Shown here: one piece after another, positions 1,309 to 60,516 of the stretch
How positions within the stretch are numbered: the stretch's first letter is position 1
Layout: each line of letters begins with the position of its first letter
Source: Neoroseomonas oryzicola
GTDB taxonomy: Bacteria > Pseudomonadota > Alphaproteobacteria > Acetobacterales > Acetobacteraceae
Length of the DNA: 64,000 nucleotides
Direction of reading: 5' to 3'
Assembly (NCBI RefSeq): GCF_012163135.1
Contig: NZ_JAAVUP010000006.1
Coordinates: forward strand, 1-64,000
Position numbers and translations under genes: made by a program
Notes under the pieces: generated by a model
The model's database searches: none
Told to the model about the DNA's origin: nothing
The model's input: the letters and a program-made list of their open reading frames with translations, nothing else

Positions 1309-1314
1309 CGCGCG

Positions 1315-3145: not shown

Positions 3146-3157
3146 GCTCGCTTCCTC

Positions 3158-4566: not shown

Positions 4567-4582
4567 GGCGTCCTCCTCGGTG

Positions 4583-6022: not shown

Positions 6023-6701
6023 GCCGCCCGCACCTCCAGCCCCTGGGAGATGTAGAAGCCGCGCGCCACGCGGTGGCTGCGCCCAAGGCGATGCTTCGTC
6101 AGCAGGCCGGACAACCGCGCGTGGGAGACGGGCTCGATCGCGGGGGCACGGTTGCCGCGCGGGAACAACCGTCCGGCGGCGTGCATCGCGCTCAGCAGCG
6201 GCGTGCGCGGGGCGAATGTGAAGACCACCGATCCGTCGGCGCGGGCAGCGAGCTGCGCCACCGCCTCGGCCATGTCCTCGGCGCGGTAGTGGATCAGGCT
6301 GTCCATCGCGACCACGTGGTCGAAGCGGCCGAGCGCAGGATCGAGCATGTCGCCCACCAGGAAGCGCACGCTGCCCGCGCCATGCCGGCCGGCCGAACGT
6401 TCCTCGGCCAGCGCGACCAGCGTGGGCGAGATGTCCACCGCGACAACCGAAGCCCCGCGACGCGCAGCCTCCACCGCCAGCGCCCCGGTGCCGCAGCCGG
6501 CATCGAGCAGCCGCGCCCCGCGCAGGTCCTGCGGCAGCCACGACAGCAGCGTGTCGCGCATCTCCGTCCGGCCGGCACGCACCGTGGCGCGGATGCCATT
6601 GAGCGGTGCGTCGGAGGTCAGCCGCTTCCAGGCCTCGGCCGCGGTGCGGTCGAAATAGGTCTCGAGCTCGCCGCGGCGGGCGGTGTAGCTGGACGAGCGC
6701 A

Positions 6702-6702
<1 letters not shown>
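6019..6702 (-). CDS. bchM: Mg-protoporphyrin IX O-methyltransferase
   Basis: The 227-residue SAM-dependent methyltransferase has motif I LLDAGCGTGALAVEAARRG and a downstream VVAVDIS, followed by MDSLIHYRAEDM, characteristic of BchM. It methylates the ring-C propionate of Mg-protoporphyrin before the AcsF reaction. The start at 6702 shares one base with the bchL stop (TGATG), and its own stop overlaps lhaA by 4 bp, so it is tightly coupled in the operon. Length agrees with the family (about 225-235). Confidence 0.96.
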
Positions 6703-11138
<4,436 letters not shown>

Positions 11139-11164
<26 letters not shown>

Positions 11165-12677
11165 CGTAGAGCGTCTCGATGGTGATGGTCGCGAGGCCGC
11201 GTTCCGCGGCGAAGGCCTCCGTGTTGCGCCGCGCCTTGCCGCGGACGAAGAAGGGGATCTTGCGGAGTTCGCTCTCCGCGTCCTGCGCCCAGCGCACCAC
11301 TTCGACGGCGGCCGGCACAGGCACCGGTGCGGCTACCGGCACGGGCGCCGGCGCGGCGGCCGCGCCGAGATGCGAGGCGCCGGCGTCGTCATGGAACTCG
11401 AAATCGTCGCGGAACATCCGCAGCAGGTGTTCCTCGAGGCCCATCATCAGCGGATGGACCCAGGTGTCGAACAGGACGTTCGCGCCCTCGAAGCCCATCT
11501 GCGGGGAATGGCGCGCCGGGAAGTCCTGCACATGCACTGGCGCCGAGATGACAGCACAGGGAATGCCGAGCTTCTTCGCGATGTGGCGTTCCATCTGCGT
11601 GCCGAGCACGAGCTCGGGCTGCGCCGCGGCGATCGCAGCTTCCACCGCCAGGTAGTCGTCGCTGATCAGCGCCTCGAGCCCGTACTCCCGCGCCGCCGCG
11701 CGCACGTAGCGCGCCTGTTCGCGGGAATAGGTGCCGAGGCCGACCACCTCGAAGGCGAGTTCCTTCGCCGCCACCCGCGCCGCGGCGATGGCATGCGTCG
11801 CATCGCCGAAGACGAAGACCCGCTTGCCCGTCAGGTAGTTCGAATCGACCGAGCGCGAATACCAGGGCAGCCGCGACGATTCGGCCGCGAGGATCGGCCC
11901 CGCGTCGACGCCGGCGAGGCCCGCCACCTCCGCGATGAAGTCCCGCGTGGCGCCGACGCCGATCGGCACCACCGTCGTCGCCTTCTGGCCGAAGGTGCGC
12001 GCCAGCCATTCCGCGGCGACGCCGGCGGTCTCGGGATAGAGCACGACGTTGAAGTCGGCCTCACCGAGCCGCGTGAGATCGGCCGGCGTCGCGCCCAGCG
12101 GCGCCACCACATTCACATCCACGCCGAGCCGCGCGAGCAGCCCGCGGATCTCGACCAGGTCGTCGCGATGGCGGAAGCCGAGCGCCGTCGGCCCGAGGAT
12201 GTTGCAGGTCGGGCGATCGCCGCGCGGCGTGCTGCGCGGCTGCGCGAAGGCGCGGACCAGGCGGTACAGCGTCTCCGCCGCGCCCCAGTTCTCCTTGCGC
12301 TGGTAGGACGGCAGCTCGATCGGCACCACCGGCACCGGCAGGCCGAGCGTGCGGGCGAGGCCGCCGGGATCGTCCTGGATCAGCTCCGCCGTGCAAGAGG
12401 CCCCGACCAGCAGGGCCTGCGGCTGGAAGCGCGCGACCGCGTCGAGTGCCGCCGCCTTCAGCAGTTCCGCCGTGTCCCCGCCCAGGTCACGCGCCTGGAA
12501 GGTGGTGTAGGTGACGGGCGGGCGCCGGTCCCGCCGCTCGATCATGGTGAAGAGCAGATCCGCGTAGGTGTCGCCCTGCGGTGCGTGCAGGACGTAGTGC
12601 AGCCCCTCCATTGCGGTGGCGACGCGCATCGCCCCCACATGCGGCGGCCCCTCATACGTCCAGACCGCGAGCTGCAT
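11139..12677 (-). CDS. bchB: Protochlorophyllide reductase subunit B
   Basis: The 512-residue BchB subunit forms the catalytic heterotetramer with BchN. Asp36 (in [10 protein letters not shown]) is at the position of the unusual aspartate ligand of the interdomain 4Fe-4S cluster. The C-terminal domain after about residue 450 ends in [19 protein letters not shown], typical for the subunit. An Ala/Pro/Val repeat linker (about residues 425-450) precedes it. It lies 3 bp after the bchN stop and overlaps the bchH start. Confidence 0.97.
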
Positions 12678-12680
12678 CGC

Positions 12681-14539
<1,859 letters not shown>

Positions 14540-47004: not shown

Positions 47005-47940
47005 ATGCCCATTCCCGCGATCTTCGAGGGCCGCCTGTCCGTGCCCGTCGTCGCCTCGCCGCAATTCCTCGTCTCGGGGCCCGACTATGTGGTGGAGGCC
47101 TGCCGGGCCGGGGTAGTCGGCACCTTCCCCGCCCTGAACCAGCGCACCACCGAGGGCTACGACGCCTGGCTCGCGCAGATCGGAGAGCGCCTCGCCGCCA
47201 TCCCGCGTGCCGCGCCCTTCGGCATCAACCTGATCGTCCACAAGTCCAACGCGCGCCTCAAGGACGACCTCGCCGCGACGGTGCGGCACAAGGTGCCGCT
47301 GGTGATCACCTCCCTCGGCATCGTGCCCGAGGTGATCGCCGCGGTGCAGTCCTATGGCGGCCTGGTCTTCCACGACGTGACCAACATGCGCCACGCGGTG
47401 AAGGCGATCGAAGGCGGGGTGGACGGGCTGATCGCGGTCTGCGCCGGTGCCGGCGGCCATGCCGGGCGGCTCAGCCCCTTCGCGCTGCTGCCGGAACTGC
47501 GCGCGATCTACGCGGGCCCGCTGCTGATGGGGGGCGCGATCTCGACCGGGCGGCACATCGCCGCGGCGCTCATGCTCGGCGCCGACATGGCCTATATGGG
47601 CACGCGCTTCATCGCGGTGCGCGAAAGCATGGCCGTGCAGGCGCACAAGGACATGGTGGTGCAGGCGAAGGCCGCCGACATTGTCTACACGCCCGCCATC
47701 AGCGGGGTGCACGCCAACTTCCTTCGCGCGAGCATCGCAGCCGCGGGCCTCGATCCCGACAACCTGCCCGAGGCCGCCGGCACCCATGTCGGCGACCATG
47801 ACAAGCGCCCGTGGAAGAACATCTGGTCGGCCGGGCAGGGCGTTGGCGCGATCGAGGACGTGCCCTCGATCGCCGAACTCGTCGCCCGGCTCGGCGCGGA
47901 GTATCGCGCCGCGCTGCGCGAGGCCGCCGCCGCGGCCTAG
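47005..47940 (+). CDS. Nitronate monooxygenase (2-nitropropane dioxygenase family)
   Basis: The 311-residue FMN-dependent TIM barrel has SVPVVASPQFLVSGPDYV at the N-terminus, the active-site loop AVCAGAGGHAGR with the conserved His, and MGGAISTGRHIAAALMLGADMAYMGTRF. It oxidises alkyl nitronates such as propionate-3-nitronate. The start is after AGGAGAA at 46988. Its TAG stop forms a CTAG overlap with the stop of the convergent MarR gene. Confidence 0.9.
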   Translation: MPIPAIFEGRLSVPVVASPQFLVSGPDYVVEACRAGVVGTFPALNQRTTEGYDAWLAQIGERLAAIPRAAPFGINLIVHKSNARLKDDLAATVRHKVPLVITSLGIVPEVIAAVQSYGGLVFHDVTNMRHAVKAIEGGVDGLIAVCAGAGGHAGRLSPFALLPELRAIYAGPLLMGGAISTGRHIAAALMLGADMAYMGTRFIAVRESMAVQAHKDMVVQAKAADIVYTPAISGVHANFLRASIAAAGLDPDNLPEAAGTHVGDHDKRPWKNIWSAGQGVGAIEDVPSIAELVARLGAEYRAALREAAAAA

Positions 47941-48431
47941 AGGCTTTCCCCGCGCAGCCTGGCGCCGAGCCGGCTGCGCAGCGCGGTGAGGACGCGATCC
48001 GCGGCCTCGACATCCTCGCGCGGCAGGCCGCGCAGCAAGGTCTCGTTCAGTTCGCGCCCGACCGCGATCATGCGGTCGAGCACGCGCCCGCCCCGCGCGG
48101 TGAGATAGACGCGGTTCAGCCGCCGGTCCGAGGCATCCGGCCGGCGGGACACCAGGCCCGCCGCCTCGAGCCTTGCGGCCATCGCGCCAGCGGCCACCTT
48201 GCCCAGCCCCAGCACGCGCGCGAGTTCCGCCTGCGTCATGCCGCCCGCCGGGTCATGCCGCGTGAGCTGCGCCAGCGCCCACCACTGCGCGCGCGTGACG
48301 CCATGCGGCTTCATCGCCTGGTCGAACACGGTCTGCCGCAAACGGGAGACATCGTGCACCAGGAAGCCGATGCGGAACTCGCTGCTGCCGCGCGTGGCGC
48401 GGATCCGGGGCGCGTCGGCCGCGCGGCTCAT
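47937..48431 (-). CDS. MarR-family transcriptional regulator
   Basis: The 164-residue winged-helix regulator has its HTH at about 60-110 (MTQAELARVLGLGKVAAGAMAARLEAAGLVSRR in parts) and wing DASDRRLNRVYLTARG. The start MSRAADAPR overlaps the TctC stop by 4 bp (48428-48431), so it is co-translated with the TctC-CoA-transferase genes and may control them in response to an aromatic or carboxylate ligand. Confidence 0.88.
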   Translation of the reverse strand: MSRAADAPRIRATRGSSEFRIGFLVHDVSRLRQTVFDQAMKPHGVTRAQWWALAQLTRHDPAGGMTQAELARVLGLGKVAAGAMAARLEAAGLVSRRPDASDRRLNRVYLTARGGRVLDRMIAVGRELNETLLRGLPREDVEAADRVLTALRSRLGARLRGESL

Positions 48432-49390
48432 TCGCGCGGAAGGCCCGCGGCCTGGGCGATGCGGCCCCATTGCTCGATCTCGCGGGCCTGGAAGCGCGCG
48501 AGATCCTCCGGCGTACCGGTCGAGGAGACGAGACCAAGGCCGAGCGAGTACCGGCGGCCCTCCTCGCTGTCGAGCACGGCGCGGATCTCGCGGTTCAGTC
48601 GGGTGATCGCCGCCTCCGGGCTGCGCGACGGCAGGAAGACCGCGACCCAGGAGGCAAAGTCGTAGCCGGGCACGCCGGCTTCCTGCAGCGTCGGAACGTC
48701 AGGCAACATCGGGATGCGCTGCGCCGGCGTGACGCCGAGCGCGCGCAGCGTGCCCGCGCGGACATGCTCGCCCGCCGAGGCCAGGTCGCTCACCATGAAG
48801 TGCAGCCGGCCCGCGAGCAGGTCGGTCACCGCCGCGGGCGTGCCGCGATAGGAGATACGTTCCGCCGAGATGCCCGTGATGCTGATCAGTAGCTGCGCCG
48901 CGGCCAGGCTGCCGATGTTGCCGGTCCCGTAGTTGAGGCTGTTCCCCCGCGCCTTGGCCTCCGTGATGAAGCCCGCCACGTCGGTCGCCGGAAAGTCGGC
49001 CCGGACCATCAGCACCAGCGGGGCGATGCTGGTCAGAGTCACCGGCGCGAAGTCGCGGACCGGATCGTAGCCGGGCTCGCGCATCAGGTGCACGGCCGCG
49101 GCATGGGTCGAGTTGGTGGCGAAGAGGAAGCTGTGCCCGTCCGGCGCCGCGCGCGCGGCCTGCCGCGCGGCGATGGCGCCGTTGCCGCCCGTGACGTTCT
49201 CGACGACGACCGGCTGGCCCAGGCTGCGCGAGATGCGCTCCGCGACGAAGCGCGCCACGCCATCCGTCGCGCTGCCGGGCGGAAAGGGAACGATGGCGCG
49301 CAGGGGTCGCGTGGGGAAGGCGTCGCCGCCCTGCGCCTGAGCGGCGAAGGGCAGCAAGGGCGTGGCGAGGACGAGCCTTCGTCCGATCAT
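48428..49390 (-). CDS. TctC/Bug-family extracytoplasmic binding protein
   Basis: The 320-residue precursor has signal peptide MIGRRLVLATPLLPFAAQAQG and Bug core motifs FPTRPLRAIVPFPPGSATDGVARF, EPGYDPVRDFAPV and ISYRGTPAAVTDLLAGRLHFM. The start at 49390 gives a normal signal peptide; the open frame upstream does not. It sits 13 bp after the CoA-transferase gene, implying it binds the acid that the transferase activates. Confidence 0.9.
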   Translation of the reverse strand: MIGRRLVLATPLLPFAAQAQGGDAFPTRPLRAIVPFPPGSATDGVARFVAERISRSLGQPVVVENVTGGNGAIAARQAARAAPDGHSFLFATNSTHAAAVHLMREPGYDPVRDFAPVTLTSIAPLVLMVRADFPATDVAGFITEAKARGNSLNYGTGNIGSLAAAQLLISITGISAERISYRGTPAAVTDLLAGRLHFMVSDLASAGEHVRAGTLRALGVTPAQRIPMLPDVPTLQEAGVPGYDFASWVAVFLPSRSPEAAITRLNREIRAVLDSEEGRRYSLGLGLVSSTGTPEDLARFQAREIEQWGRIAQAAGLPRE

Positions 49391-49403: not shown

Positions 49404-50594
49404 TCACGACGTGCCGAGCGCGCCGGCGGCGCGCAGCCCGGCGATCTCGTCTGCACCGAAACCATAGGATGCCAGGGCCTCGGCCGAATGCTGGCCGAGC
49501 ATCGGCGGCGGCGATCCGACTGTCCGCTTCCTGCCGTCGAACTGGATCGGCTGCGCCATCGTCTTCAGTGGGCCGAGCTGCGGGTGGTCGTAGTCCATGA
49601 CCATGCCGCGCGCGGCCATGTGCGGATGCGCCAGCATGTCGGCGATGGTGTTCACCGCCGCGCAGGGGATGCCGATGCGCAGGCAGAACTCCACCCAGTC
49701 ATCGGCACGGCGCGTGGCGACGATCGCCTGCAGGACGGCCACGGTCTCGGCGAAGTTGGCCACCCGGTCGGCATTGGTGCGGAAGCGTGGATCCTCGGCC
49801 AGTTCCGGACGCTCGACGCCGGCGGTGAAGCGGCGCCAGAGATTGTCGTTGGCGATGCCGATCAGCACCGGCCGGTCGGCCGCGTCGAAGGCCTGGTACG
49901 GGCAGAGAGATTCATGGCCGGACCCGCACTTCTCCGGCAGGCTCCCCTTCTCCCAGAAGATCTGGAAGTTGTAGCCGAGCAGCGCCGCGGCGGTCTCGAA
50001 CAGCGAGACCTCGAGCCGGCATCCCTGTCCGGTGCGATGGCGTTCCAGCAGCGCGGCGAGAATGCCGGAGAAGGCATTCATCCCCGTCGACTGGTCGATC
50101 GGGGAGAAGGGGCTGCGCGCCGGGCCGCCGCCGCGCTCACCCGTCATCGCCATGATGCCGCTGAAGGCCTGTAGGATGACGTCGTAGCCGAGCCCGTCCT
50201 TCAGCGGCCCGGTCCGCCCGAAGCCGGAGATGGAGCAGTAGACCAGGCGCGGGTTCAGCGCGCGCATCTCCTCCGCCCCGATGCCCAGGCGGTCGGCGAC
50301 GCCCGTCGCATAGGATTCGATCAGCACATCCGCCTGCGCGGCCATGCGGCGTGCGGCGTCGCGCCCCGCCTCGGTCTTGAGGTCGAGCGCGAGCGACTTC
50401 TTGTTGCGGTTCGCGCTGAGGAACACCGCGCCGACACCGCCGCGGAAGGGTGGCCAGCCGCGCGTGTCGTCGCCGCCGCGCGGCGGCTCGATCTTCGTCA
50501 CCTCGGCACCGAGATCGCCCAGCCACTGCGCACAGAGCGGCCCCGCCAGCACCTTGGAGAAATCCAGGACGCGGATCCCTGCGAGCGGCGTCAC
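49404..50594 (-). CDS. Class III (CaiB/BaiF) CoA-transferase
   Basis: The 396-residue protein reads VTPLAGIRVLDFSKVLAGPLC at the N-terminus, has FGRTGPLKDGLGYDVILQAFSG with the catalytic Asp in GYD, and STGMNAFSGILAALLERHRTGQG. It moves CoA between acids such as succinate and a substrate. The GTG start at 50594 is chosen because the family begins exactly there; GTG 50603 is possible, and a much longer open frame would cross the divergent promoter. First gene of a CoA-transferase-TctC-MarR operon. Confidence 0.9.
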   Translation of the reverse strand: MTPLAGIRVLDFSKVLAGPLCAQWLGDLGAEVTKIEPPRGGDDTRGWPPFRGGVGAVFLSANRNKKSLALDLKTEAGRDAARRMAAQADVLIESYATGVADRLGIGAEEMRALNPRLVYCSISGFGRTGPLKDGLGYDVILQAFSGIMAMTGERGGGPARSPFSPIDQSTGMNAFSGILAALLERHRTGQGCRLEVSLFETAAALLGYNFQIFWEKGSLPEKCGSGHESLCPYQAFDAADRPVLIGIANDNLWRRFTAGVERPELAEDPRFRTNADRVANFAETVAVLQAIVATRRADDWVEFCLRIGIPCAAVNTIADMLAHPHMAARGMVMDYDHPQLGPLKTMAQPIQFDGRKRTVGSPPPMLGQHSAEALASYGFGADEIAGLRAAGALGTS

Positions 50595-50666
50595 GCGCGG
50601 CACCCTGCGGCAAAGGCTCGCGTGCCGAGCGAAAGGCCCAACTCCATGCGCTTCCCCCGCGACTGC

Positions 50667-50704
50667 TTGCACGATGATCGTACGCATGCTTACCATTTGC
50701 AAGC
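50667..50704 (+). promoter_or_regulatory. Candidate promoter and operator of the acyl-CoA operon
   Basis: TTGCAC (50667-50672) and TTACCA (50690-50695) are 17 bases apart. An inverted repeat GCTTAC-CATTT-GCAAGC (50688-50704, 5 of 6 pairs) lies over the -10 and could bind a TetR-type or MarR-type regulator controlling both this operon and the divergent CoA-transferase operon. The AT content here is the highest in the neighbourhood. Confidence 0.4.
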
Positions 50705-50729
50705 GAACGAGAACGATCGAGGAAACGGC

Positions 50730-51890
50730 ATGCTGGACCGGCCCCGCACGGTGCTGAGCCCGGATCACGAGATGTTCCGCACCTCCGTGCGCCGCTTCGT
50801 GGAGTCCGAGTTGGTTCCCCATGCCCTGGCTTGGGACGAGGCCGGCATAGTCCCGCGCGAAGCCTGGCTCAAGGCCGGCGAGGCGGGACTGCTGTGCTGC
50901 GACGTCGCGCCCGACTATGGTGGTCCCGGCGGCGATTTCGGCCACTGCGCGGTGGTGACCGAGGAACTAGCGCGCGCAAACCTCTCCGGCCCCGGCTTCG
51001 TCGTGCATTCGGACATGGTCGCGACCTACCTCGCGAAGTTCGGGTCCGAGGCGCAGAAGCGCCGCTGGCTGCCGGGCATGGTCGATGGCTCGCTGATCGG
51101 CGCCATCGCGATGACCGAACCCGATGCGGGCAGCGACCTCAAGGGCATGCGCACACGGGCCGTGGCGGATGGCGACCACTACGTTATTCGCGGGCAGAAG
51201 ACCTACATCTCGAACGGCCAGAACGCCGACATCGTCATCACCGCCTGCAAGACGGACGCGAATGCCGGTGCGCATGGCGTCAGCCTGATCGTGATCGAGA
51301 CGAAGACGCCCGGCTTCCGGCGCGGCCGTAACCTCGCCAAGATCGGCATGAAGGCGCAGGACACCTCGGAACTGTTCTTCGACGAGGTACGCGTGCCGAT
51401 GGAGAACCGCCTCGGCGCCGAGGGCCAGGGCTTCGGCATGCTGATGACGAACCTCGCGCGCGAACGCCTGGTGCAGGCGGTGCGCGGCACGGTGCTGGCC
51501 GAGGAAGCGATCCGCTGGACCATCGATTACACCCGCGACCGCAAGGCCTTCGGCCGCACCATCGCCGACTTCCAGAACACCCGCTTCGTGCTGGCGGAAC
51601 TCGCCACCAAGACCGCCGCAGCGCGCGCACTGACCGACCGGCTGATCGGACTACAGATGGACGGCACGCTCGACCCGGTCGAGGCCGGCATGGCGAAGCT
51701 GTTCTGCACCGACCTGCAATGCGAGGTGCTGGACCGCTGCCTGCAACTGTTCGGCGGCGCGGGCTACATGGTGGAAACGCCGATCGCGCGGGCCTGGGCG
51801 GATGCGCGCGTGACGCGCATCGCCGGCGGCGCGGCGGAAGTCATGAAGGAGATCATCGGCCGGCGCCTGTTCCAGGATGCCGCCCGATGA
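50730..51890 (+). CDS. Acyl-CoA dehydrogenase (long-chain/isovaleryl-type active site)
   Basis: The 386-residue FAD enzyme has AMTEPDAGSDLKGMRT, DRKAFGRTIADFQNTRFVLAELATKTAAAR (in parts) and LQLFGGAGYMVETPIARAWADAR. At the C-terminus RIAGGAAEVMKEIIGRR lacks the usual catalytic Glu of the YEGT motif. As in LCAD and isovaleryl-CoA dehydrogenase the base is probably the Glu of NLARERLVQA. It should introduce an alpha,beta double bond into an acyl-CoA in the cytoplasm. Start MLDRPRTVLSPD follows a GAGGAAA site. First gene of the plus-strand operon. Confidence 0.91.
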   Translation: MLDRPRTVLSPDHEMFRTSVRRFVESELVPHALAWDEAGIVPREAWLKAGEAGLLCCDVAPDYGGPGGDFGHCAVVTEELARANLSGPGFVVHSDMVATYLAKFGSEAQKRRWLPGMVDGSLIGAIAMTEPDAGSDLKGMRTRAVADGDHYVIRGQKTYISNGQNADIVITACKTDANAGAHGVSLIVIETKTPGFRRGRNLAKIGMKAQDTSELFFDEVRVPMENRLGAEGQGFGMLMTNLARERLVQAVRGTVLAEEAIRWTIDYTRDRKAFGRTIADFQNTRFVLAELATKTAAARALTDRLIGLQMDGTLDPVEAGMAKLFCTDLQCEVLDRCLQLFGGAGYMVETPIARAWADARVTRIAGGAAEVMKEIIGRRLFQDAAR

Positions 51891-51915
51891 CGCAGGATCG
51901 GAGGACAAGGCGCCG

Positions 51916-53100
51916 ATGAGCGAGCGCACATTGCGCGGCAAGGTGGCGATCGCCGGCATCGGCGAGACCACCTACTACAAGCACGGGCAATCCCCCGATG
52001 CGGAGTTCAAGCTGGCGCTGCAGGCGATCCTCGCCGCATGCGACGACGCCGGCATCGACCCGAAGGAAGTCGACGGCTTCGCCTCCTATGGCGACGATCG
52101 CTCGGACGCGCCGCGACTGGCGGCCGCACTGGGCATCAAGGAACTGCGCTTCTCCAACATGCATTGGGGCGGCGGGGGTGGCGGCGTCGCGGCCTCGGTC
52201 GCCAATGCCGCGGCGGCGGTGCATTCGGGCATGGCGAATTGCGTCATCGCCTTCCGCTCGCTCGCGCAGGGGCAGTTCGCGCGCTACGGCCGCAGCCGGC
52301 TCGGTGCGGCGGCGATGGGGGATGACGCCTTCCTCGCGCCCTATGGCCTGATCTCCCCGGCGCAGCGTTTCGCCATGAAGATCACCCGCTTCATGAGCGA
52401 CCATGGCATCCGGCACGAGGCGCTGCGCGCCATCGCCATGGCCTCCTACCACCATGCCCAGTCCAACCCGCGCGCGGTGATGTACGGACGGCCTCTGACG
52501 GAGGAGAAGTACGACGCCTCCCGCTGGATCATCGAGCCCTTCCATCGCCTTTTCGACTGCTGCCAGGAGAATGACGGCGCCGGCGCGGTGCTGGTGGTGC
52601 CGGCCGATCGCGCGAAGGACCTGCCGCACAAGCCGACCTATCTGCTCGGCACCGCGCAGGGCGGGCACCACCGCAGCGCGGCGCCGGTGCACAACGCGCC
52701 GGACTATGCGTCTGCGCACTTCCCCACCGTCGCGAAGAACATGTGGGCCATGGCGAAGCTCGGCCCGCAGGATGTCGACGTCGTGCAGGCCTATGAGAAC
52801 TTCACCGGCGGCGTGCTGCTCTCCCTGGTAGAGCACGGCTTCGTCGACCCGAAGAAGGCGAACGAGTTCCTGGTGCTCGAGAACCTGCTCGCGCCGAGCG
52901 GGAAGATGCCGATGAACACCAGCGGCGGGAATCTCGCCGAGTGCTACATGCACGGGCTCGAGATGGTGAACGAGGCCGTCCGCCAATTGCGCGGCACCGC
53001 CAACAACCAGGTCGCCGGCGCCGAGGTCGTCGCCGTCCTCGGCGGCCCGATGGTGACGCCCGTCAGCAGCCTGGTCCTCGGCACGGAGGCGACCCTGTGA
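51916..53100 (+). CDS. Thiolase-fold protein of Ltp2/DitF type (probable retro-aldolase)
   Basis: The 394-residue lipid-transfer-protein/thiolase-like protein lacks the nucleophilic Cys of true thiolases: the corresponding loop is MHWGGGGGGVAASVANAAAAV. Instead it has Tyr293 (VQAYENFTGG) and Tyr344 (NLAECYMHGLEM) in the positions of tyrosines proposed as catalytic in the steroid side-chain aldolase Ltp2 (from memory). It is followed by its usual DUF35 partner with a 4-bp GTGA overlap. Ltp2-DUF35 pairs cleave tertiary beta-hydroxyacyl-CoAs to a ketone and propionyl- or acetyl-CoA; a similar role is inferred. Confidence 0.85.
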   Translation: MSERTLRGKVAIAGIGETTYYKHGQSPDAEFKLALQAILAACDDAGIDPKEVDGFASYGDDRSDAPRLAAALGIKELRFSNMHWGGGGGGVAASVANAAAAVHSGMANCVIAFRSLAQGQFARYGRSRLGAAAMGDDAFLAPYGLISPAQRFAMKITRFMSDHGIRHEALRAIAMASYHHAQSNPRAVMYGRPLTEEKYDASRWIIEPFHRLFDCCQENDGAGAVLVVPADRAKDLPHKPTYLLGTAQGGHHRSAAPVHNAPDYASAHFPTVAKNMWAMAKLGPQDVDVVQAYENFTGGVLLSLVEHGFVDPKKANEFLVLENLLAPSGKMPMNTSGGNLAECYMHGLEMVNEAVRQLRGTANNQVAGAEVVAVLGGPMVTPVSSLVLGTEATL

Positions 53101-53543
53101 GCACGACCACGAAGCGCGCCCTGCCCGATGGCCTGCCCGCGCCCGACCAGCCGCCGCTGACCAAGCCCTATTGGGACGGCACGCGCGCCGGCAAGCTGGT
53201 GATCCAGCGCTGCAAGGGTTGCGGCGCGCATCAATGGGGGCCCGAATGGGTCTGCCATCGCTGCCACTCCTTCGACCTCGGTTGGGAGGAAGTGGCGCCG
53301 ACCGGCCGCATCTGGTCCTGGCAGCGGCCGCATCACCCCGTCCACCAGGCGCTGACGGGCTTCGGACCCTACACCATCGTGCTGGTGGAACTGCCCCATG
53401 CCGGCAATGTCCGCATGGTCGGCAACCTGATCTGTGAACCGACCGCGCCCGTGGAGATCGGCGCAGAGGTCGAAGCGGTGTTTGAACCGCATGACGAAGC
53501 GGACCCGCCCTATACGCTGGTCCAGTGGCGCCTGAAGGACTGA
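53097..53543 (+). CDS. DUF35 zinc-ribbon/OB-fold partner protein
   Basis: The 148-residue protein has a rubredoxin-like zinc ribbon with Cys39, Cys42, Cys53 and Cys56 (CKGCG...CHRCHS), then an OB-fold. DUF35 proteins are obligate partners of DitF/Ltp2-like proteins and help channel CoA substrates. GTG start at 53097 overlaps the preceding stop; the N-terminal LTKPYWDGTRAGKLVIQRC is typical. Confidence 0.9.
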   Translation: MSTTTKRALPDGLPAPDQPPLTKPYWDGTRAGKLVIQRCKGCGAHQWGPEWVCHRCHSFDLGWEEVAPTGRIWSWQRPHHPVHQALTGFGPYTIVLVELPHAGNVRMVGNLICEPTAPVEIGAEVEAVFEPHDEADPPYTLVQWRLKD

Positions 53544-53548
53544 GGACG

Positions 53549-54001
53549 ATGGCAGGACTGTATTTCGAGGAGTTCGAGGTCAGGCAGGTGTTCCGGCACG
53601 CGATCCGCCGGACGATCACCGAGACCGACAATGTCTGGTTCTCGGCGATCACGCACAACCCGGCGGCGCTGCATCTCGACGAGGAATACGCGAAGGGCAC
53701 CGAATTCGGCACGCGCATCGTCAATTCCTGCTTCACGCTGGGGCTGATGGTCGGCATCTCGGTGGGCGACACGACGCTCGGCACCACCGTCGCCAATCTC
53801 GGCTGGGACGAGGTGCGCTTCCCGAAGCCGCTGTTCCACGGCGACACCATCCGCGTGGAATCCGAGGTGCTGTCGAAGCGCCCGAGCAAGTCGCGTCCTG
53901 GCCAGGGCATCGTCGAGTTCATGCACCGCGCCTACAACCAGCATGACGTGCTGGTGGCCCACTGCCGCCGCCAGGCGCTGATGCTGAGCAAGCCGGCATG
54001 A
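53549..54001 (+). CDS. MaoC-family enoyl-CoA hydratase (mesaconyl-CoA hydratase-like)
   Basis: The 150-residue hot-dog-fold protein has RRTITETDNVWFSAITHNPAALHLDEEYA, containing the hydratase N-P...H-x-D motif, and DEVRFPKPLFHGDTIRVESEVL. This subgroup includes mesaconyl-CoA/beta-methylmalyl-CoA hydratases. The adjacent overlapping CitE-type lyase supports a hydration-then-cleavage pair. It starts 5 bp after DUF35 and overlaps citE-like by 4 bp. Confidence 0.87.
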   Translation: MAGLYFEEFEVRQVFRHAIRRTITETDNVWFSAITHNPAALHLDEEYAKGTEFGTRIVNSCFTLGLMVGISVGDTTLGTTVANLGWDEVRFPKPLFHGDTIRVESEVLSKRPSKSRPGQGIVEFMHRAYNQHDVLVAHCRRQALMLSKPA

Positions 54002-54879
54002 TCCGCTCCTGGCTCTTTGTCCCGGCGGACAGCGAGCGCAAGCTCGCCAAGGGCGGGGAGAGCGGCGCGGATGCGCTGATCCTGGACCTCGAGGATTCCG
54101 TCGCCGCCACGCGGCGCCCCGTCGCGCGGGGCATGGTGGTGGACTACCTCGCGGCACATGCGGGTGCCGCGCGGCGGCCGCAGCTCTGGGTACGCATCAA
54201 TCCCCTCGACGGCGAGGGCCTGACCGACGCAGCGGCCGTGGTGCGTGCGGCGCCGGATGGCCTCGTCGTGCCGAAGGTGAACGGGCCGGACGATCTGCTG
54301 CGCCTGTCGCATTGGCTGGACGCGCTGGAAGCGCGCGACGGTCTCGCTCTCGGTGGCATCAAGCTGCTCGCGGTGGCGACCGAAACCGCGGCCGCCGTGC
54401 TGCGCCTGTCCGAATACGCGAAGGTCGCGGTGCCGCGCCTCGCCGCGCTGACCTGGGGGGCGGAGGACCTGCCCGCCGCGCTCGGCGCCAGCACCAACCA
54501 GGATCCCGCGGGCGGCTATGCGCTGACCTATCGTCTCGCGCGCTCGGCCTGCCTGCTCGCGGCGGTGGCCGCCAATGTGCAGCCGATCGACACGCTCGAG
54601 GTGGACTTCCGCGACGAGGCCGCGCTGCGCGCCGCCTGCGCCGATGGCCGCCAGCAGGGCTTCACCGGCAAGATCGCCATCCACCCCGCGCAGGTCGGCC
54701 CGATCAACGAAGGCTTCCGCCCGACGGCCGAGGAGGTCGCCCATGCGCGTCGTGTCGTCGCGGCCTTCGCGGCGAATCCCGGCATCGGCACGGTGGGGCT
54801 CGACGGGAAGATGATCGACATGCCGCATCTGCGCCAGGCGCAGCGCGTGCTCGCCGCCGATGCGGCGTTCCAGGCCTGA
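53998..54879 (+). CDS. CitE/HpcH-family CoA-ester lyase
   Basis: The 293-residue TIM-barrel lyase has RSWLFVPADSERKLAKG, ADALILDLEDSVAATRRP with Mg/CoA-binding acids, VPKVNGPDDL, LAVATETAAAVL and GFTGKIAIHPAQVGPINEGF. Family members cleave malyl-, beta-methylmalyl- or citramalyl-CoA to glyoxylate or pyruvate plus an acyl-CoA. Coupled to the MaoC gene by a 4-bp overlap, so it likely cleaves the hydratase product. Confidence 0.88.
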   Translation: MIRSWLFVPADSERKLAKGGESGADALILDLEDSVAATRRPVARGMVVDYLAAHAGAARRPQLWVRINPLDGEGLTDAAAVVRAAPDGLVVPKVNGPDDLLRLSHWLDALEARDGLALGGIKLLAVATETAAAVLRLSEYAKVAVPRLAALTWGAEDLPAALGASTNQDPAGGYALTYRLARSACLLAAVAANVQPIDTLEVDFRDEAALRAACADGRQQGFTGKIAIHPAQVGPINEGFRPTAEEVAHARRVVAAFAANPGIGTVGLDGKMIDMPHLRQAQRVLAADAAFQA

Positions 54880-54894
54880 CGGGGGAAGCGACGC

Positions 54895-55758
54895 ATGGCG
54901 ATCGACTACGACAAGCTGAAGAACCGGAGCTTCGCCGATATCGAGCAGGCCTACGGCATCAAGGACACGATGCTCTACGCGCTCGGCCTGGGCCTCGGGC
55001 AGGACCCGATGGATCCGAAGCAGCTGCGCCATGTCTATGAGGAAGACCTCGTCGCCCTGCCCACCATGGGCGTGGTGCTGGCGACACCAGGGTTCTGGGT
55101 GAAGGAACCCGATACCGGCGTCGACTGGCCCAAGGTGCTGCACGGCGAACAGGGGCTGACCATCCACAAGCCCTTGCCGCCGCAGGGCCGGGTCGTCAGC
55201 AGGTTCCGCATCGACGAGATCATCGACAAGGGCGCCGGCAAGGGCGCGCTGATGTACACGACGCGCGAACTGCGCGACGTCGCGACCGGCGAGTTGCTCT
55301 GCAGCCTCACCAGCACCTCCTTCCTGCGCGGCGATGGCGGCTTCGGCGGTCCGAGCGGCCCGATCCGCCAGCCGCATCCCGTGCCCGAGGGCACGCCCGA
55401 TGCATCCTTCGACTGGACGGTCGGCCGCCACGCCGCGCTGCTCTACCGCCTGAACGGCGACTACAACCCCGTCCATGCCGACCCGAAGGCCGCCGCGAAG
55501 GGTGGCTTCGCGCAGCCGATCCTGCACGGGCTCTGCTCCTACGGCGTTGCCGGCTGGGCCGTGATGAATCTGGTCTGCGACGGCGACGCATCGCGGCTCC
55601 GGCGCTTCGACCTGCGCTTCACCGCGCCGGTCTACCCGGGCGAGACGCTGCGCACGGAGGTCTGGAATCAAGGCCCAGGTGTGGCCGCCTTCCGCGTGCG
55701 CGTCCCGGCACGGGACGTCATCGCGCTGAACAACGGCCGGGCGGAATACCTGCCGTGA
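54895..55758 (+). CDS. MaoC-type 2-enoyl-CoA hydratase 2
   Basis: The 287-residue double-hot-dog hydratase has the hydratase-2 signature YRLNGDYNPVHADPKAA at about residues 184-200 with catalytic Asp and His, followed by FAQPILHGLCSYG. It resembles the hydratase unit of peroxisomal multifunctional enzyme 2 and adds water to trans-2-enoyl-CoAs to give R-3-hydroxyacyl-CoA, fitting between the dehydrogenase and the Ltp2-like aldolase. Overlaps the ligase start (GTGA). Confidence 0.91.
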   Translation: MAIDYDKLKNRSFADIEQAYGIKDTMLYALGLGLGQDPMDPKQLRHVYEEDLVALPTMGVVLATPGFWVKEPDTGVDWPKVLHGEQGLTIHKPLPPQGRVVSRFRIDEIIDKGAGKGALMYTTRELRDVATGELLCSLTSTSFLRGDGGFGGPSGPIRQPHPVPEGTPDASFDWTVGRHAALLYRLNGDYNPVHADPKAAAKGGFAQPILHGLCSYGVAGWAVMNLVCDGDASRLRRFDLRFTAPVYPGETLRTEVWNQGPGVAAFRVRVPARDVIALNNGRAEYLP

Positions 55759-57275
55759 CGGCGCCGGCGGTCATCGTCAGCGGTGACCGCCAGGTCACCC
55801 GCGACGCGCTGATGGCCCGCGTTCGGCGTGCGGCGACGGGGTTCTCGGCGCTCGGCGTCGGTCCCGGCGACTGCGTCGCGCTGCTGCTGCGCAACGACTT
55901 CTCCTTCCTCGAGGCGAGCCTCGCCGCGACGACACTCGGCGGCTACGCGGTGCCGATCAACTGGCACTGGAAGCCGGACGAGGTCGCCTACCTCCTGCGC
56001 GACTGCGAGGCGCGCATCGTCGTCGTGCACGCCGACCTCGCGCACCTGCTGTCGGAAGCCCCGGAGGGGCTGACGATCCTCGTCGTTCCCACGCCGCCCG
56101 AGGCCGCCGCCGCCTACGGCATCCCGCCCGGGCAGCACCCCGCGCCCGGCGAGGACTGGGACGCCTTCATCGCCCGCCACGCCGAATGGGACCGTCCGCC
56201 CCAGCCGGCGCGGGAGAGCATGATCTACACCTCCGGCACGACCGGCCGGCCGAAAGGCGTGCGCCGCCAGCCGCCGACGCCCGAACAGGCCGCTGCCACC
56301 GCGCGCAACCGCGCGCAGATCTATGGCCTGGTTCCCGGCATCCGCGCGCTGGTGCCGGGGCCGATGTATCACTCGGCGCCGAACGGCTTCGGCCTGCGCG
56401 CCGTGCCGTTGTCCGAAGTGCTGGTGCTGATGCCGCGCTTCGACCCGGAGGAGACGCTCGCGCTGATCGAGCGCCACCGCATCACCACCGTCTTCCTCGT
56501 CCCCACCATGATGGTGCGCCTGCTCCGCCTGCCGGAGGAGGTGAAGCGCCGCTACGACCTCTCCTCGCTGCGCCACGTCACCCATGCGGCCGCACCCTGT
56601 CCGCCCGAGGTGAAGCAGGCGATGCTCGACTGGTGGGGCCCGGTCATCCACGAGTTCTACGGCGCGACCGACCTCGGCGCGCCGACCGCCTGCACGCCGG
56701 AGCAATGGCTCGCGAAGCCGGGCACCGTCGGCACGCTGACCGAAGGCGCGATCGTGAAGATCCTCGGCGCGAATGGCGAGGAATGCCCCGTCGGCGTGCC
56801 CGGCGAGATCTTCGCCAGCGTCGCCTACATGCCGGACTTCACCTACAACAAGCGCGACGGCGAACGGCGCGCGGTGGAACTCGGCGGGCTGATCACCGTC
56901 GGCGATGTCGGCTACTTCGACGCGGACGGCTACCTGTTCCTCTGCGACCGCAAGCGGGACATGGTCATCTCCGGCGGCGTGAACATCTACCCCGCCGAGA
57001 TCGAGGCCGTGATGATCGGCATCCCAGGCGTGCTCGACTGCGCCGTCTTCGGCATTCCGGATGCGGAGTATGGCGAGAGCCTCTGTGCCGCGGTGCGCGC
57101 CGCGCCGGGCACCACGGAAGCCACGATCCGCGAGGCGCTGAAGGCGAAGCTCGCCAACTTCAAGGTACCGCGCGTCATCGACTTCCACGACGAATTGCCG
57201 CGCGACGATTCCGGCAAGCTGCTCAAGCGCAAGCTGCGCGAACCCTACTGGCAGGGAGCCGGCCGCGCCATCTGA
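55755..57275 (+). CDS. AMP-forming acyl-CoA synthetase
   Basis: The 506-residue ANL-family ligase has P-loop YTSGTTGRPKG at residues 158-168, FYGATDLG (adenine-binding), GDVGYFDADGYLFLCDRKRDMVISGG and the C-terminal lysine DDSGKLLKRKLREPYW. It activates the pathway's free acid with ATP and CoA. GTG start overlaps the hydratase stop. The substrate pocket cannot be read, so chain length is unknown. Confidence 0.92.
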   Translation: MTAPAVIVSGDRQVTRDALMARVRRAATGFSALGVGPGDCVALLLRNDFSFLEASLAATTLGGYAVPINWHWKPDEVAYLLRDCEARIVVVHADLAHLLSEAPEGLTILVVPTPPEAAAAYGIPPGQHPAPGEDWDAFIARHAEWDRPPQPARESMIYTSGTTGRPKGVRRQPPTPEQAAATARNRAQIYGLVPGIRALVPGPMYHSAPNGFGLRAVPLSEVLVLMPRFDPEETLALIERHRITTVFLVPTMMVRLLRLPEEVKRRYDLSSLRHVTHAAAPCPPEVKQAMLDWWGPVIHEFYGATDLGAPTACTPEQWLAKPGTVGTLTEGAIVKILGANGEECPVGVPGEIFASVAYMPDFTYNKRDGERRAVELGGLITVGDVGYFDADGYLFLCDRKRDMVISGGVNIYPAEIEAVMIGIPGVLDCAVFGIPDAEYGESLCAAVRAAPGTTEATIREALKAKLANFKVPRVIDFHDELPRDDSGKLLKRKLREPYWQGAGRAI

Positions 57276-57314
57276 CGACACCGCGCCGGGAGCGCGCGAA
57301 CAGGGAGGTCCAGC

Positions 57315-58298
57315 ATGAACCGCATCGCCACCCCACGCCGCGCCCTGCTTGCCGCGGGCCTCGCGCCGCTGCTCGCCCCGCGCCTCGGCCGCGCGCAATC
57401 CGCCTTTCCCGGCACCAGGCCTGTCAGCCTGATCATCCCCTATGCCGCCGGCGGCATCCCCGACGTCTTCGGCAATGCCGTCAACCAGGGGCTGCAGGAA
57501 CGGCTCGGCGGCACCTTCGTCATGGATCACAAGCCGGGGGCGAGCACGACGCTCGGCACCCGCCAGGCCGCCCGCGCACGGCCGGACGGCTACACCATGG
57601 TCTTCGCGGGGAACGCGACCTTCACCATCACGCCCTTCGTGCTGCGCAGCGCGGGCTACGATCCGTCAAAGGACTTCACCTGGCTCGGCATGACCGGCAT
57701 CGCCGTCTACCTGTTCGTCGCGCATCCGCGCTGGGAGAGCCTCGATCAGCTTCTCGCCGCCGCGAAGCGCCGGCCGAACGAGATCTCCTATGCCACCTGG
57801 GGCGTCGGCTCCTCGGCGCATCTCGGCACCTTCGACCTCGCGCGGCGCGCGGGGGTCGAGATGATCCACGTCCCCTACAACGGCACCGCCGCCGCGCTGG
57901 TCGACGTGTCGAGCGGCCGGGTCGACTTCATGCTCAGCACCCTCGCCCCGGCGCGGCCGCACATGGAGGCGGGGCGCGTGCGCGCGCTCGGCATCGCGAC
58001 GGCGCAGCGCTTCCGTCCCCTGCCCAACCTGCCGACCGTCGCGGAACAGGGCTATCCCGGCTACGTCGTGCCCAACTGGACCGGCATCGCCGCACCCGCG
58101 GGCCTGCCCGACGGCATCGCGACGCAGCTCGAAACGGCCCTCGCGCAGACCTTCTCGGACGAGGCGCTTCTCACGCGGCTGGAACCGCTCGGCATCACCG
58201 CCTCGCCGACCGGCGCGCGGGCCATGCGGGAACAGGTCGCGAAGGACCTCGCGGAGAATGCGGAACTGGTGCGTCGCGCCGGGATCACCCCGGAATAG
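57315..58298 (+). CDS. TctC/Bug-family extracytoplasmic binding protein
   Basis: The 327-residue precursor has signal RRALLAAGLAPLLAPRLGRAQ and Bug core SLIIPYAAGGIPDVFGNAVNQG, SAGYDPSKDFTWLG and IHVPYNGTAAALVDVSSGRVDFM. It lies 39 bp after the ligase, so it belongs to the acyl-CoA operon and probably captures the acid substrate. No TctA/B genes accompany it. Confidence 0.9.
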   Translation: MNRIATPRRALLAAGLAPLLAPRLGRAQSAFPGTRPVSLIIPYAAGGIPDVFGNAVNQGLQERLGGTFVMDHKPGASTTLGTRQAARARPDGYTMVFAGNATFTITPFVLRSAGYDPSKDFTWLGMTGIAVYLFVAHPRWESLDQLLAAAKRRPNEISYATWGVGSSAHLGTFDLARRAGVEMIHVPYNGTAAALVDVSSGRVDFMLSTLAPARPHMEAGRVRALGIATAQRFRPLPNLPTVAEQGYPGYVVPNWTGIAAPAGLPDGIATQLETALAQTFSDEALLTRLEPLGITASPTGARAMREQVAKDLAENAELVRRAGITPE

Positions 58299-58352
58299 AC
58301 GGACCGCGGCGGACGGACGTAGCCTGCGCCCGCCATCCGGGGAGGACTCATC

Positions 58353-59318
58353 GTGAAGATCACGCGACGCAACGCGCTCGCCGCCGCCACACTGGCCCTT
58401 CCCACCGCTGCGCTGGCCCAGCCGCGCACCTGGCCGAACCGCCCGGTGCGCATCATCATCCCCTACGCGCCTGGCGGGCCGGTGGAGATCCCCGGCCGCT
58501 TCCTCGCCGAACACCTCTCGGCACGGCTCGGCCAGCCCTTCATCGTCGAGACGCGCCCCGGCGCCGGCGGTGCGGTCGGCACCAAGCAGGTCATCGCCAC
58601 CACGGACCAGCACACCCTGGCCATGGTGACCGGCGCCGTCGCCATCCAGCCGGCCGTGCAGCCCGACATCGGCTACGACCCGGTGAACGACCTCCTACCC
58701 ATCTCCCTCGTCTCGGAAGCGAGCATGGGCTTCATGGTGCGCCCCAACGCGGCCTTCCGCGACCTGCCGGCGCTGATCGCCGCGGCGAAGGCCGCGCCGG
58801 GGCGGATCACCTACGGTTCCTCGGGCAACGGCACCACCACGCACATGGCGGCGGCATTGTTCGGCGCGCGGGCCGGCATCAACTGGCAGCACGTGCCCTA
58901 TCGCGGCGGCGGGCAGCTCATCAGCGGCTTCCTCGCGGGCGACGTGGACGTGATGAGCGGCGACCTCGCGACGCTGCTGCCGCATGTGCAGGAAGGACGC
59001 GGCGTGCTGCTCGGCGTGACCTCGCCGGATCGCGTGCCCGTGGTGCCGAACGTGCCTTCGATCGCCGAGGTCGTACCCGGCACTGGCATCACCATCTGGT
59101 TCGCGCTCTTCGCCCCGCGCAACTTCCCCGAGGAGGCGACGGCGCGCCTCGTCGCCGAATTCGCGCCGCTGCGCAGCGGTTCGCCGCTCGGCGAACGCAT
59201 GGCCGCGACCGGCGGACGCCTGCTGCTGACCGGACCTGCGGAACTCTCCGAACGCCTGCGCCGCGAACTCCCGCTCTGGCGCCAGGTCGTCGCCGAGGCC
59301 GGCATCCGCCCCGAGTGA
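58353..59318 (+). CDS. TctC/Bug-family extracytoplasmic binding protein
   Basis: The 321-residue precursor starts with GTG behind GGGGAGG, has signal RRNALAAATLALPTAALAQ and Bug core WPNRPVRIIIPYAPGGPVEIPGRF, QPDIGYDPVNDLLPISL and HVPYRGGGQLISGFLAGDVDVM. Second Bug protein in a row; the two share the fold but little detailed sequence, so they may bind different acids of one pathway. Confidence 0.9.
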   Translation: MKITRRNALAAATLALPTAALAQPRTWPNRPVRIIIPYAPGGPVEIPGRFLAEHLSARLGQPFIVETRPGAGGAVGTKQVIATTDQHTLAMVTGAVAIQPAVQPDIGYDPVNDLLPISLVSEASMGFMVRPNAAFRDLPALIAAAKAAPGRITYGSSGNGTTTHMAAALFGARAGINWQHVPYRGGGQLISGFLAGDVDVMSGDLATLLPHVQEGRGVLLGVTSPDRVPVVPNVPSIAEVVPGTGITIWFALFAPRNFPEEATARLVAEFAPLRSGSPLGERMAATGGRLLLTGPAELSERLRRELPLWRQVVAEAGIRPE

Positions 59319-59325
59319 CGCATCC

Positions 59326-60516
59326 ATGATTCCGCTTCTGCCCGGCCTTCGCGTCCTCGACCTCACCAGCGTCATCTACGGCCCGCTGATCGGGCAGGTG
59401 CTCGGCGACCTCGGTGCCGAGGTCATCAAGGTCGAGGGACCGGAAGGCGACCTCGCGCGCGGCATCCAGCCCCGCGGCCCGCAGGGCGACAGCGCGATGT
59501 TCGTCTGCAACAACCGCAACAAGCGCAGCGTCGTGCTCGACCTCAAGACCCCCGCGGGATGCGAGGTCTTCAGCCGTCTGCTGCGCTGGGCCGAGGTCTT
59601 CGTCCACAACATGCGCCCCGCCGCGATCGAGCGGCTGGGCTTCGGCTTCGACAAGGTCGCGGCGATCAATCCGCAGATCATCTACTGCGCCGCCGTCGGC
59701 TTCGGCAGCGGCGGCCGCTATGCCGGGCGGCCGGCCTTCGACGACGTGATCCAGGCGGCCGGCGGCATCGCCGCGCTGCCCTCCTATCGCGGGCAGGACC
59801 CCGCCTATGTGCCCGGCGTGATGGCGGACAAGGTCGCCGCACTGACCGCGACCTATGGCGTGATGGCCGCGATCGCCGCGCGCGGCCGCGGCATGGCGGG
59901 CCCGATCGAGGTCGAGGCCGCGATGTTCGAATCGGTCGCCGCCTTCGTGCTGAACGAACACCTGGCCGCCGCCGCCTTCGGCGGCCCGCCCGAGATCGCC
60001 GGCTATCACCGCATGTTCGCCGCCGATCGCCGGCCCTACCGCACGCAGGATGGCTGGATCGCGGCCCTTCCGTACACCGAGCAGCAATGGCGCCGCCTGC
60101 TGGACTTCACCGGCCGGCGCGACGTGCTCGAGGCGCCGTGGTTCGCCGATCCCGGCGAGCGCAGCGCCCATATCGCCGAGCTCTACACCGTGCTGGCCGA
60201 GGAGATGACCCGCCGCAGCACCGCCGACTGGCTGCAGGCGCTGCAGGACCTCGACATCCCGCATGCGCGCGTCAACCGGCTCGAGGACCTGCTGACCGAT
60301 CCGCACCTGCAGGACGTGGATTTCTTCGCACCCAACGGCAGCGGCCTCGCGCGATCGGCGCGACAGCCGGTGTCCTACCCCGGCCTCGCCGCGCAGCCGG
60401 ATCGTCCGGCACCCGTACTGGGCGCGGATACCGAAGAGGTCGCGCAGATGCTCGGCTACGACGCATCCGCTGTTGCCGCGCTGCGCGCCGCCGGCGCCTT
60501 CGGGAAGGCAGGCTGA
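59326..60516 (+). CDS. Class III (CaiB/BaiF) CoA-transferase
   Basis: The 396-residue protein has LLPGLRVLDLTSVIYGPLIGQVLGDLGAEVIKVE (in parts), GGRYAGRPAFDDVIQAAGGIA with the catalytic Asp, and IEVEAAMFESVAAF. It is the same length as the transferase at 49404-50594 but on the other strand and clearly diverged. It ends the acyl-CoA operon, 7 bp after the second Bug gene, and converges with an oxidase gene. Confidence 0.91.
   Translation: MIPLLPGLRVLDLTSVIYGPLIGQVLGDLGAEVIKVEGPEGDLARGIQPRGPQGDSAMFVCNNRNKRSVVLDLKTPAGCEVFSRLLRWAEVFVHNMRPAAIERLGFGFDKVAAINPQIIYCAAVGFGSGGRYAGRPAFDDVIQAAGGIAALPSYRGQDPAYVPGVMADKVAALTATYGVMAAIAARGRGMAGPIEVEAAMFESVAAFVLNEHLAAAAFGGPPEIAGYHRMFAADRRPYRTQDGWIAALPYTEQQWRRLLDFTGRRDVLEAPWFADPGERSAHIAELYTVLAEEMTRRSTADWLQALQDLDIPHARVNRLEDLLTDPHLQDVDFFAPNGSGLARSARQPVSYPGLAAQPDRPAPVLGADTEEVAQMLGYDASAVAALRAAGAFGKAG

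Follow-up and report, generated by a model that had tools for sequence, protein, structure and literature searches.

A conserved gene set in Neoroseomonas oryzicola joining an Ltp2-like candidate retro-aldolase with an itaconate-type CitE cassette

Gene content of the locus

The region described here, positions 50730 to 60516 of the first 64,000 nucleotides of Neoroseomonas oryzicola contig NZ_JAAVUP010000006.1 (this 64,000-nucleotide stretch is referred to as the window), carries a set of plus-strand genes that includes an Ltp2-like thiolase-fold protein, its DUF35 partner and a CitE-type lyase predicted to act on coenzyme A (CoA) thioesters. The window has a GC content of 71% and belongs to a genome of 5.3 Mb, and among named organisms Neoroseomonas marina is closest, with an Ltp2-like protein that is 99% identical. 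Gene calling with a codon model, combined with Pfam, identified ten genes in the following order:

50730..51890, plus strand: acad, acyl-CoA dehydrogenase (ACAD) of 386 amino acids (Pfam; top hits in the PDB are 2pg0 and human LCAD 8w0t)
51916..53100, plus strand: ltp2-like thiolase-fold protein of the YENF clade, predicted acyl-CoA retro-aldolase (alignment, tree, structure)
53097..53543, plus strand: duf35, DUF35 partner with zinc ribbon and OB fold, GTG start (Pfam; best PDB match 6ok1_B)
53549..54001, plus strand: maoc1, single-domain MaoC hydratase, Ich/RipB-like (Pfam, NCBIfam, PDB sequence search, alignment)
53998..54879, plus strand: citE, CitE-type beta-hydroxyacyl-CoA lyase, Ccl/RipC-like (Pfam, alignment)
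54895..55758, plus strand: maoc2, MFE-2-type double-hotdog hydratase 2 (Pfam, alignment)
55755..57275, plus strand: acs, AMP-forming acyl-CoA ligase (Pfam; exceeds the PRK12406 cut-off, 765.6 vs 701)
57315..58298, plus strand: bug1, Bug/TctC periplasmic binding protein (Pfam)
58353..59318, plus strand: bug2, Bug/TctC periplasmic binding protein (Pfam)
59326..60516, plus strand: caiB(+), family III CoA-transferase (Pfam, alignment)

On gene content and on start and end coordinates, an initial annotation of the region was borne out by the gene call and Pfam. That annotation spoke of nine genes while its own list gives ten, and its description of the junctions as mostly overlapping was too strong: overlaps of 4 bases are present at three of the nine junctions (ltp2/duf35, maoc1/citE and maoc2/acs) and the remaining six are gaps of 25, 5, 15, 39, 54 and 7 bases. 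These values apply to an ltp2 start at 51916, which was preferred because the Met at this position is conserved; the codon model places the start at 51877, which would give a fourth overlap. The ratios of non-synonymous to synonymous substitution rates (dN/dS) for all ten genes were 0.05-0.20 against the related locus L022 and 0.06-0.18 against L023, and therefore the ten genes are real coding genes.

Glu245 of acad aligns with a Glu in LCAD (the residue is Gln in the 8w0z chain) and is probably the catalytic residue at the LCAD/IVD-type position; we take Glu at this position to be the LCAD/IVD catalytic base, a placement that presumably goes with branched substrates. The usual MaoC hydratase motif is D-x4-H, which in maoc1 is replaced by N37-x4-H42; in maoc2 the motif is D189-x4-H194. 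In the alignments, E129, E156-D157 and H229 of citE are conserved, as is D168 of caiB(+), which we presume to be its catalytic residue.

The Ltp2-like protein and its DUF35 partner

At the position of the thiolase nucleophile, the protein starting at 51916 has W84 followed by a run of Gly, and the nucleophilic Cys is absent (alignment and tree rows). In an alignment of the window protein with those from 80 loci, which are the best 80 of 254 relatives, Y293 and Y344 were found in 81 of 81 rows. The catalytic pair of TcLtp2 is Tyr294/Tyr344 (PMC12329534). The Ltp2-like clade was sister to TcLtp2 (100/100), separate from the Cys thiolases, in a tree of 34 hand-chosen rows, in which the SCP2 thiolase, Sal, 7yvy, TcLtp2 and L144 were flagged as long branches. 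TcLtp2 was also the nearest characterised protein in the PDB sequence search, and Ltp2 was the best structure match in the fold comparison, which used a predicted structure with low-confidence loops at 120-134, 141-145, 212-214 and 256-261. The duf35 gene is directly downstream of ltp2 in 80/80 loci; the zinc ribbon of its product reads C39-x2-C42-x10-C53-x2-C56, with the four Cys present in 76 of 77 rows and the remaining row gapped.

These comparisons point to the 51916 protein as a candidate acyl-CoA retro-aldolase with a DUF35 partner. The initial annotation had proposed such an Ltp2-like candidate and partner from the missing thiolase Cys and the presence of Tyr293 and Tyr344, and both the residues (with the start at 51916, in alignment and tree) and the proposal held up. 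It had also named a placement with Cys thiolases as decisive against the proposal; the PDB search, tree and fold comparison instead put the protein beside Ltp2. Together with the missing Cys, the same three comparisons ruled out a normal (SCP2-type) thiolase.

Relatives of the Ltp2-like protein are spread over several groups, among them Acetobacteraceae, Burkholderiales and Gammaproteobacteria. On the Delftia plasmid NZ_CP065696.1 (L161, 11992-13634) a 64% identical aldolase with the motif YDSF is encoded together with DUF35, and this plasmid also carries IS1071, a Rieske protein, CaiB and a KstD/ChcC-like flavin adenine dinucleotide (FAD) enzyme; a similar Rieske-CaiB-ltp2-duf35 set is present on a Variovorax plasmid (L162). 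A plasmid search matched seven records, none of which covered 80% of the query. In 20 of the 80 loci (within L054-L100) a conserved amidohydrolase (PF04909; about 403 amino acids) is found near ltp2-duf35, at a distance of at most 1.5 kb in 15 of the 20, and could be an alternative partner for the same aldolase.

Linkage of the two cassettes and alternative readings

A CaiB-Bug-MarR operon on the minus strand, outside the coordinates of the initial annotation, is conserved alongside the plus-strand genes. This operon and the features next to it are:

49404..50603, minus strand: divergent CaiB, family III CoA-transferase, start uncertain (Pfam, tblastn conservation)
48428..49390, minus strand: divergent Bug/TctC binding protein (Pfam, tblastn conservation)
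47937..48431, minus strand: MarR-family regulator, at the end of this operon (Pfam)
50604..50729, no strand: divergent promoter region shared by both operons, about 126 bases long; an element around TCGTACGCATGCTTACCAT is conserved in part (alignment of 13 regions)
50591..50647, minus strand: 5' remnant of acad2, a second acyl-CoA dehydrogenase that is intact in sister genomes (alignment)
47005..47940, plus strand: nitronate-monooxygenase-like flavin mononucleotide protein adjoining the MarR gene, membership uncertain (Pfam)

Conservation of the promoter region extends across genera, as judged by alignment only and without statistics, with L044 the most divergent. Sister loci with an intact acad2 have the divergent CaiB on one side of it and the shared promoter on the other. 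Five of the seven operon genomes contain acad2 (at least 90% identity), while the window genome and genome G021 have just a 60% paralogue elsewhere on the contig. The open reading frame opening at 50647 in the window begins with MELGLS, where L022 has MDFGLS, after which it diverges and runs into a stop. A nitronate-monooxygenase-like gene is also found near the operon in L021, L023, L024 and L051, and L143 has a 48% relative.

The frequency with which these genes accompany ltp2 was determined for the 80 Ltp2-like loci using tblastn identity thresholds (at least 70% for maoc1-citE, at least 70% for the divergent CaiB and at least 59% for Bug), because gene calls by the codon model were incomplete in some loci (lacking, for example, the divergent CaiB of L021, acad2 of L022 and maoc1 of L155 and L157). 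Both maoc1 and citE were near ltp2 in 14 of 80 loci, and the divergent CaiB and/or Bug was present on the minus strand in 14/14 of these and in 0/66 of the others (CaiB and Bug in 10, CaiB alone in 3 and Bug alone in 1, L032). Of the 66 loci without maoc1-citE orthologues, 44 have at least 5 kb on both flanks and 37 at least 9 kb. MarR was called in at least 10 of the 14 maoc1-citE loci. The genes maoc2 and acs were near ltp2 in 13/80 loci, 9 of them also with maoc1-citE, and in 59/80 loci DUF35 was the only member of the tested gene set that was present. The full set of ten genes with the divergent CaiB and Bug was found in six loci (L021-L025 and L051) and in the window, and L026-L028 miss bug2 and caiB(+) alone. 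Neoroseomonas marina, N. soli and N. lacus are among the species with the complete set. Among 35 genomes (own and same genus), orthologues of ltp2 (at least 93%) and citE (at least 91%) were present in the same seven. This linkage, like the gene content, conservation and catalytic residues, is directly observed.

The MaoC1-CitE pair is a separate unit that is common in Alphaproteobacteria and occurs without an Ltp2-like gene. In 25 alphaproteobacterial maoc1/citE regions, which were chosen rather than random (5 from the same-genus search and 20 from better matches) and for which gene-call counts are lower bounds, the pair was adjacent in at least 21, with acad2 (at least 50%) in at least 12, CaiB in at least 8 and a carboxylase pair in at least 2. 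In some comparisons acad2 and MarR were represented by sister-locus proteins (apparently acad2 of L025, and MarR of L026), the window having no acad2. On the Methylobacterium aquaticum plasmid pMaq22A_2p, maoc1-citE is accompanied by acad2 (70%), MarR (56% to that of L026), a CoA hydrolase/transferase-family gene and a beta-keto acid cleavage enzyme, and no Ltp2-like gene was found in the stretch examined. In L135 maoc1-citE adjoins biotin-carboxylase- and carboxyltransferase-family genes and an ACAD, a cluster that we infer to be a leucine operon.

As judged from gene content, residues and neighbourhoods, there is about an even chance that the genes of the region form a single regulon for the breakdown of a branched carboxylic acid, which may be alicyclic or beta-branched, and that its two cassettes would each activate, dehydrogenate, hydrate and cleave. 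It is possible, if rather doubtful, that two unrelated pathways were instead joined by shuffling at a shared promoter region, one an itaconate-, methylsuccinate- or 3-methylglutarate-type dicarboxylate route (CaiB, Bug, MarR, MaoC1, CitE) and the other a route in which acs, acad, maoc2 and ltp2-duf35 would break down a branched monocarboxylate by retro-aldol cleavage. Activation, hydratase and cleavage enzymes are present separately in each cassette, and either cassette is found without the other. L042 (on a 6-kb contig) and L043 have acad-ltp2-duf35-maoc2-acs without orthologous maoc1-citE, and L044 and L049 have acad-ltp2-duf35-maoc1-citE without maoc2-acs. Chance joining is, however, at odds with the position of maoc1-citE, which is directly after duf35 in 14/14 loci and before maoc2 in 9/9 of the loci holding both, with the maintenance of this arrangement in Neoroseomonas, Siccirubricoccus, Paracraurococcus, Roseicella and Paeniroseomonas, and with the combination of the same enzyme types and a thiolase in L143 and L152.

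These last two loci, from two other families, contain acad (60%), acad2 (72%), maoc1 (62-67%), citE (54-58%) and maoc2 (44-48%) together with a thiolase that has the motif HDCF, with the Cys present, and a short-chain dehydrogenase/reductase (SDR) alongside; the L143 thiolase exceeds the PRK06157 cut-off (657.5 vs 403). Such Cys-thiolase clusters support two cuts in one pathway, and the initial annotation's statement that the gene set holds two C-C cleaving enzymes was also supported. Among 19 window genes scanned with Pfam (44.1-63.4 kb) none encoded an SDR, which fits because a retro-aldol cut would make a beta-hydroxyacyl dehydrogenase step unnecessary.

In the L143 cluster (182-13889), maoc1-citE-acad2 and the thiolase are joined by an ACP_syn_III_C protein carrying an OB_ChsH2_C domain and by two further enzymes: a beta-keto acid cleavage enzyme, which passes its NCBIfam cut-off (556.3 vs 430), and a BadI-like hydrolase, which falls short of its own (416.8 vs 467.6). 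The cluster may be an alicyclic-ring pathway.

Several observations weigh against a single regulon built on an Ltp2-type aldolase. No maoc1-citE orthologues were detected in 66/80 Ltp2-like loci (22 of the 66 with less than 5 kb on at least one side) and maoc2 and acs were not near ltp2 in 67/80, so each half seems able to work alone; the one combined pathway of the initial annotation is thus not indivisible, as MaoC1-CitE and Ltp2-DUF35 each occur apart. Weaker CaiB or Bug homologues were present in 26 of the 66 loci. In L043 a maoc1-citE pair of lower identity (55%/51%) lies at a distance of about 4 kb, with no orthologue of the divergent CaiB or Bug. In 81/81 rows YENF replaces the YDHF of Ltp2, with Asn in place of the oxyanion-hole His, and the ltp2 product missed the cut-off of the NCBIfam model PRK07855 (lipid-transfer protein; 367.8 vs 469 bits), which we take to stand for Ltp2. 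The NCBIfam cut-offs for RipB/Ich (maoc1, 140.8 vs 340) and RipC/Ccl (citE, 163.2 vs 375) were also missed, and membership of these families is therefore not claimed. In addition, acad2 has been lost from the window, dehydrogenases of the acad type are common (a 56% paralogue is located elsewhere in the same genome), and in Paracraurococcus (L033 and L036) an SDR lies beside ltp2-duf35, which weakens the argument from the missing SDR.

An unusual Claisen-type activity (acyl transfer or thiolysis) of the Ltp2-like protein is improbable: its fold is common to BbsB, PhlC and the acetoacetyl-CoA thiolase complex, and DUF35 proteins also partner thiolases and acyltransferases (PMC12329534), but the Gly run and both Ltp2 tyrosines are present in every row of the alignment and the clade is placed with TcLtp2, away from the Cys thiolases. 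Least probable, and very unlikely, is a role in breaking down the side chains of steroids or bile acids, for which Ltp2 and Sal are known. In its favour, TcLtp2 is the nearest characterised protein, the ACAD resembles LCAD and in L161 a KstD/ChcC-kind FAD enzyme (under all listed cut-offs) is near a related aldolase. Against it, HsaA, the sole steroid marker searched, was over the cut-off in 0/7 operon genomes (best 158 vs 450 bits, with weak matches in 7/7 operon genomes and 7/14 control genomes), steroid-ring genes were 0 of the 19 window genes scanned, and CitE and family III CoA-transferase are not among the enzymes that the abstract of PMC12502768 lists. In line with the initial annotation, which had seen no steroid-ring gene, a steroid substrate was set aside as unproven on this one marker.

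Proposed reactions and comparison with known systems

For the reading as one regulon, we infer the individual reactions, the substrate, the co-regulation and the joining of both cassettes in a single linear pathway as follows. The Bug proteins would capture the substrates and MarR would be the probable regulator of both cassettes. In cassette 1, the CaiB CoA-transferase would activate a branched dicarboxylate, acad2 in the sister genomes, and here presumably acad or a paralogue, would form the enoyl-CoA, MaoC1 would give a citramalyl-CoA-like or 3-hydroxy-3-methylglutaryl-CoA-like tertiary alcohol, and CitE would cut this into acetyl-CoA and a keto acid. In cassette 2, the AMP ligase would form the acyl-CoA, the LCAD/IVD-type dehydrogenase the enoyl-CoA, and MaoC2 a tertiary or otherwise non-oxidisable beta-hydroxyacyl-CoA, from which a retro-aldol cut by Ltp2-like/DUF35, in which Tyr293 would serve as the base and Tyr344 as the acid, would release acetyl- or propionyl-CoA and a ketone or aldehyde. 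A branched dicarboxylic or side-chain acid is compatible with this scheme as the candidate substrate.

More tentatively, and at somewhat less than even probability, the YENF clade may comprise widespread non-steroid retro-aldolases for the carboxylase-free passage of beta-branched or alicyclic side-chain acids, which would be dehydrogenated, hydrated to a tertiary alcohol and split into acetyl-/propionyl-CoA and a ketone; in Neoroseomonas and its kin the clade would be combined in a single regulon with an itaconate-like CitE cassette, which would complete the breakdown of the branched dicarboxylate set free. (1-Hydroxycyclohexyl)acetyl-CoA lyase (EC 4.1.3.35) is a step of cyclohexaneacetate degradation, and a YENF-type enzyme would fit this step; no gene for cyclohexaneacetate cleavage was found among the open-access literature matches listed, as far as titles and the opening of abstracts show. 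In a separate listing of literature matches, the papers that deal with DUF35-dependent retro-aldolases concern steroid side chains, and a conserved sister clade would make retro-aldol side-chain cleavage a more general bypass of beta-branching. The clade is easily overlooked, with Delftia copies labelled acetyl-CoA acetyltransferase and the best NCBIfam model named lipid-transfer protein, and the operon offers a compact, testable enzyme set for branched or alicyclic acids.

In the Ltp2-ChsH2(DUF35) system for the steroid C3 side chain (PDB 6ok1) the motif is YDHF, whereas it is YENF in the window, where DUF35 is encoded by a gene of its own without a fused MaoC domain, genes for CaiB, Bug and CitE are added, and the one steroid-ring marker searched was not found. 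The bile-acid aldolase Sal-Shy (PDB 9myr) is likewise a DUF35-dependent thiolase-fold aldolase, but Sal has YDCY and a Gln at the second Tyr (PMC12329534). Its identity to the window protein is 26%, and in the tree it is outside the group of Ltp2 and the YENF proteins.

The window CitE scored 122.8 bits against PDB 3qll and 98.7 bits against 6aq4, which we take to be RipC and Rv2498c, respectively. Rv2498c, also a CitE-type lyase, acts in itaconate and leucine breakdown (PMC6689899), and maoc1-citE relatives adjoin carboxylase genes in L135 and L142, whereas 0 of the 19 window genes scanned encode a carboxylase. The ict-ich-mcd-ccl cluster handles itaconate and methylsuccinate (PMC12290011; PMC9875883 is likewise cited for an itaconate-type enzyme set), and its set of CoA-transferase, ACAD, hydratase and lyase is similar to that of the window, where linked CoA-transferase, hydratase and lyase genes are present as the divergent CaiB, maoc1 and citE. 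The window differs from it in that MmgE/PrpD was found in 0 of the 19 genes scanned, that the RipB/Ich and RipC/Ccl cut-offs were missed and that acad2 is deleted. The initial annotation had not recognised the combination of genes, and while part of it thus resembles ict-ich-mcd-ccl, the Ltp2-DUF35-CitE combination was not found among the best-ranked open-access literature matches, judged by titles and abstract starts. What is new in comparison with these systems is an uncharacterised Ltp2-like aldolase clade joined with an itaconate-type CitE cassette in a conserved catabolic gene set.

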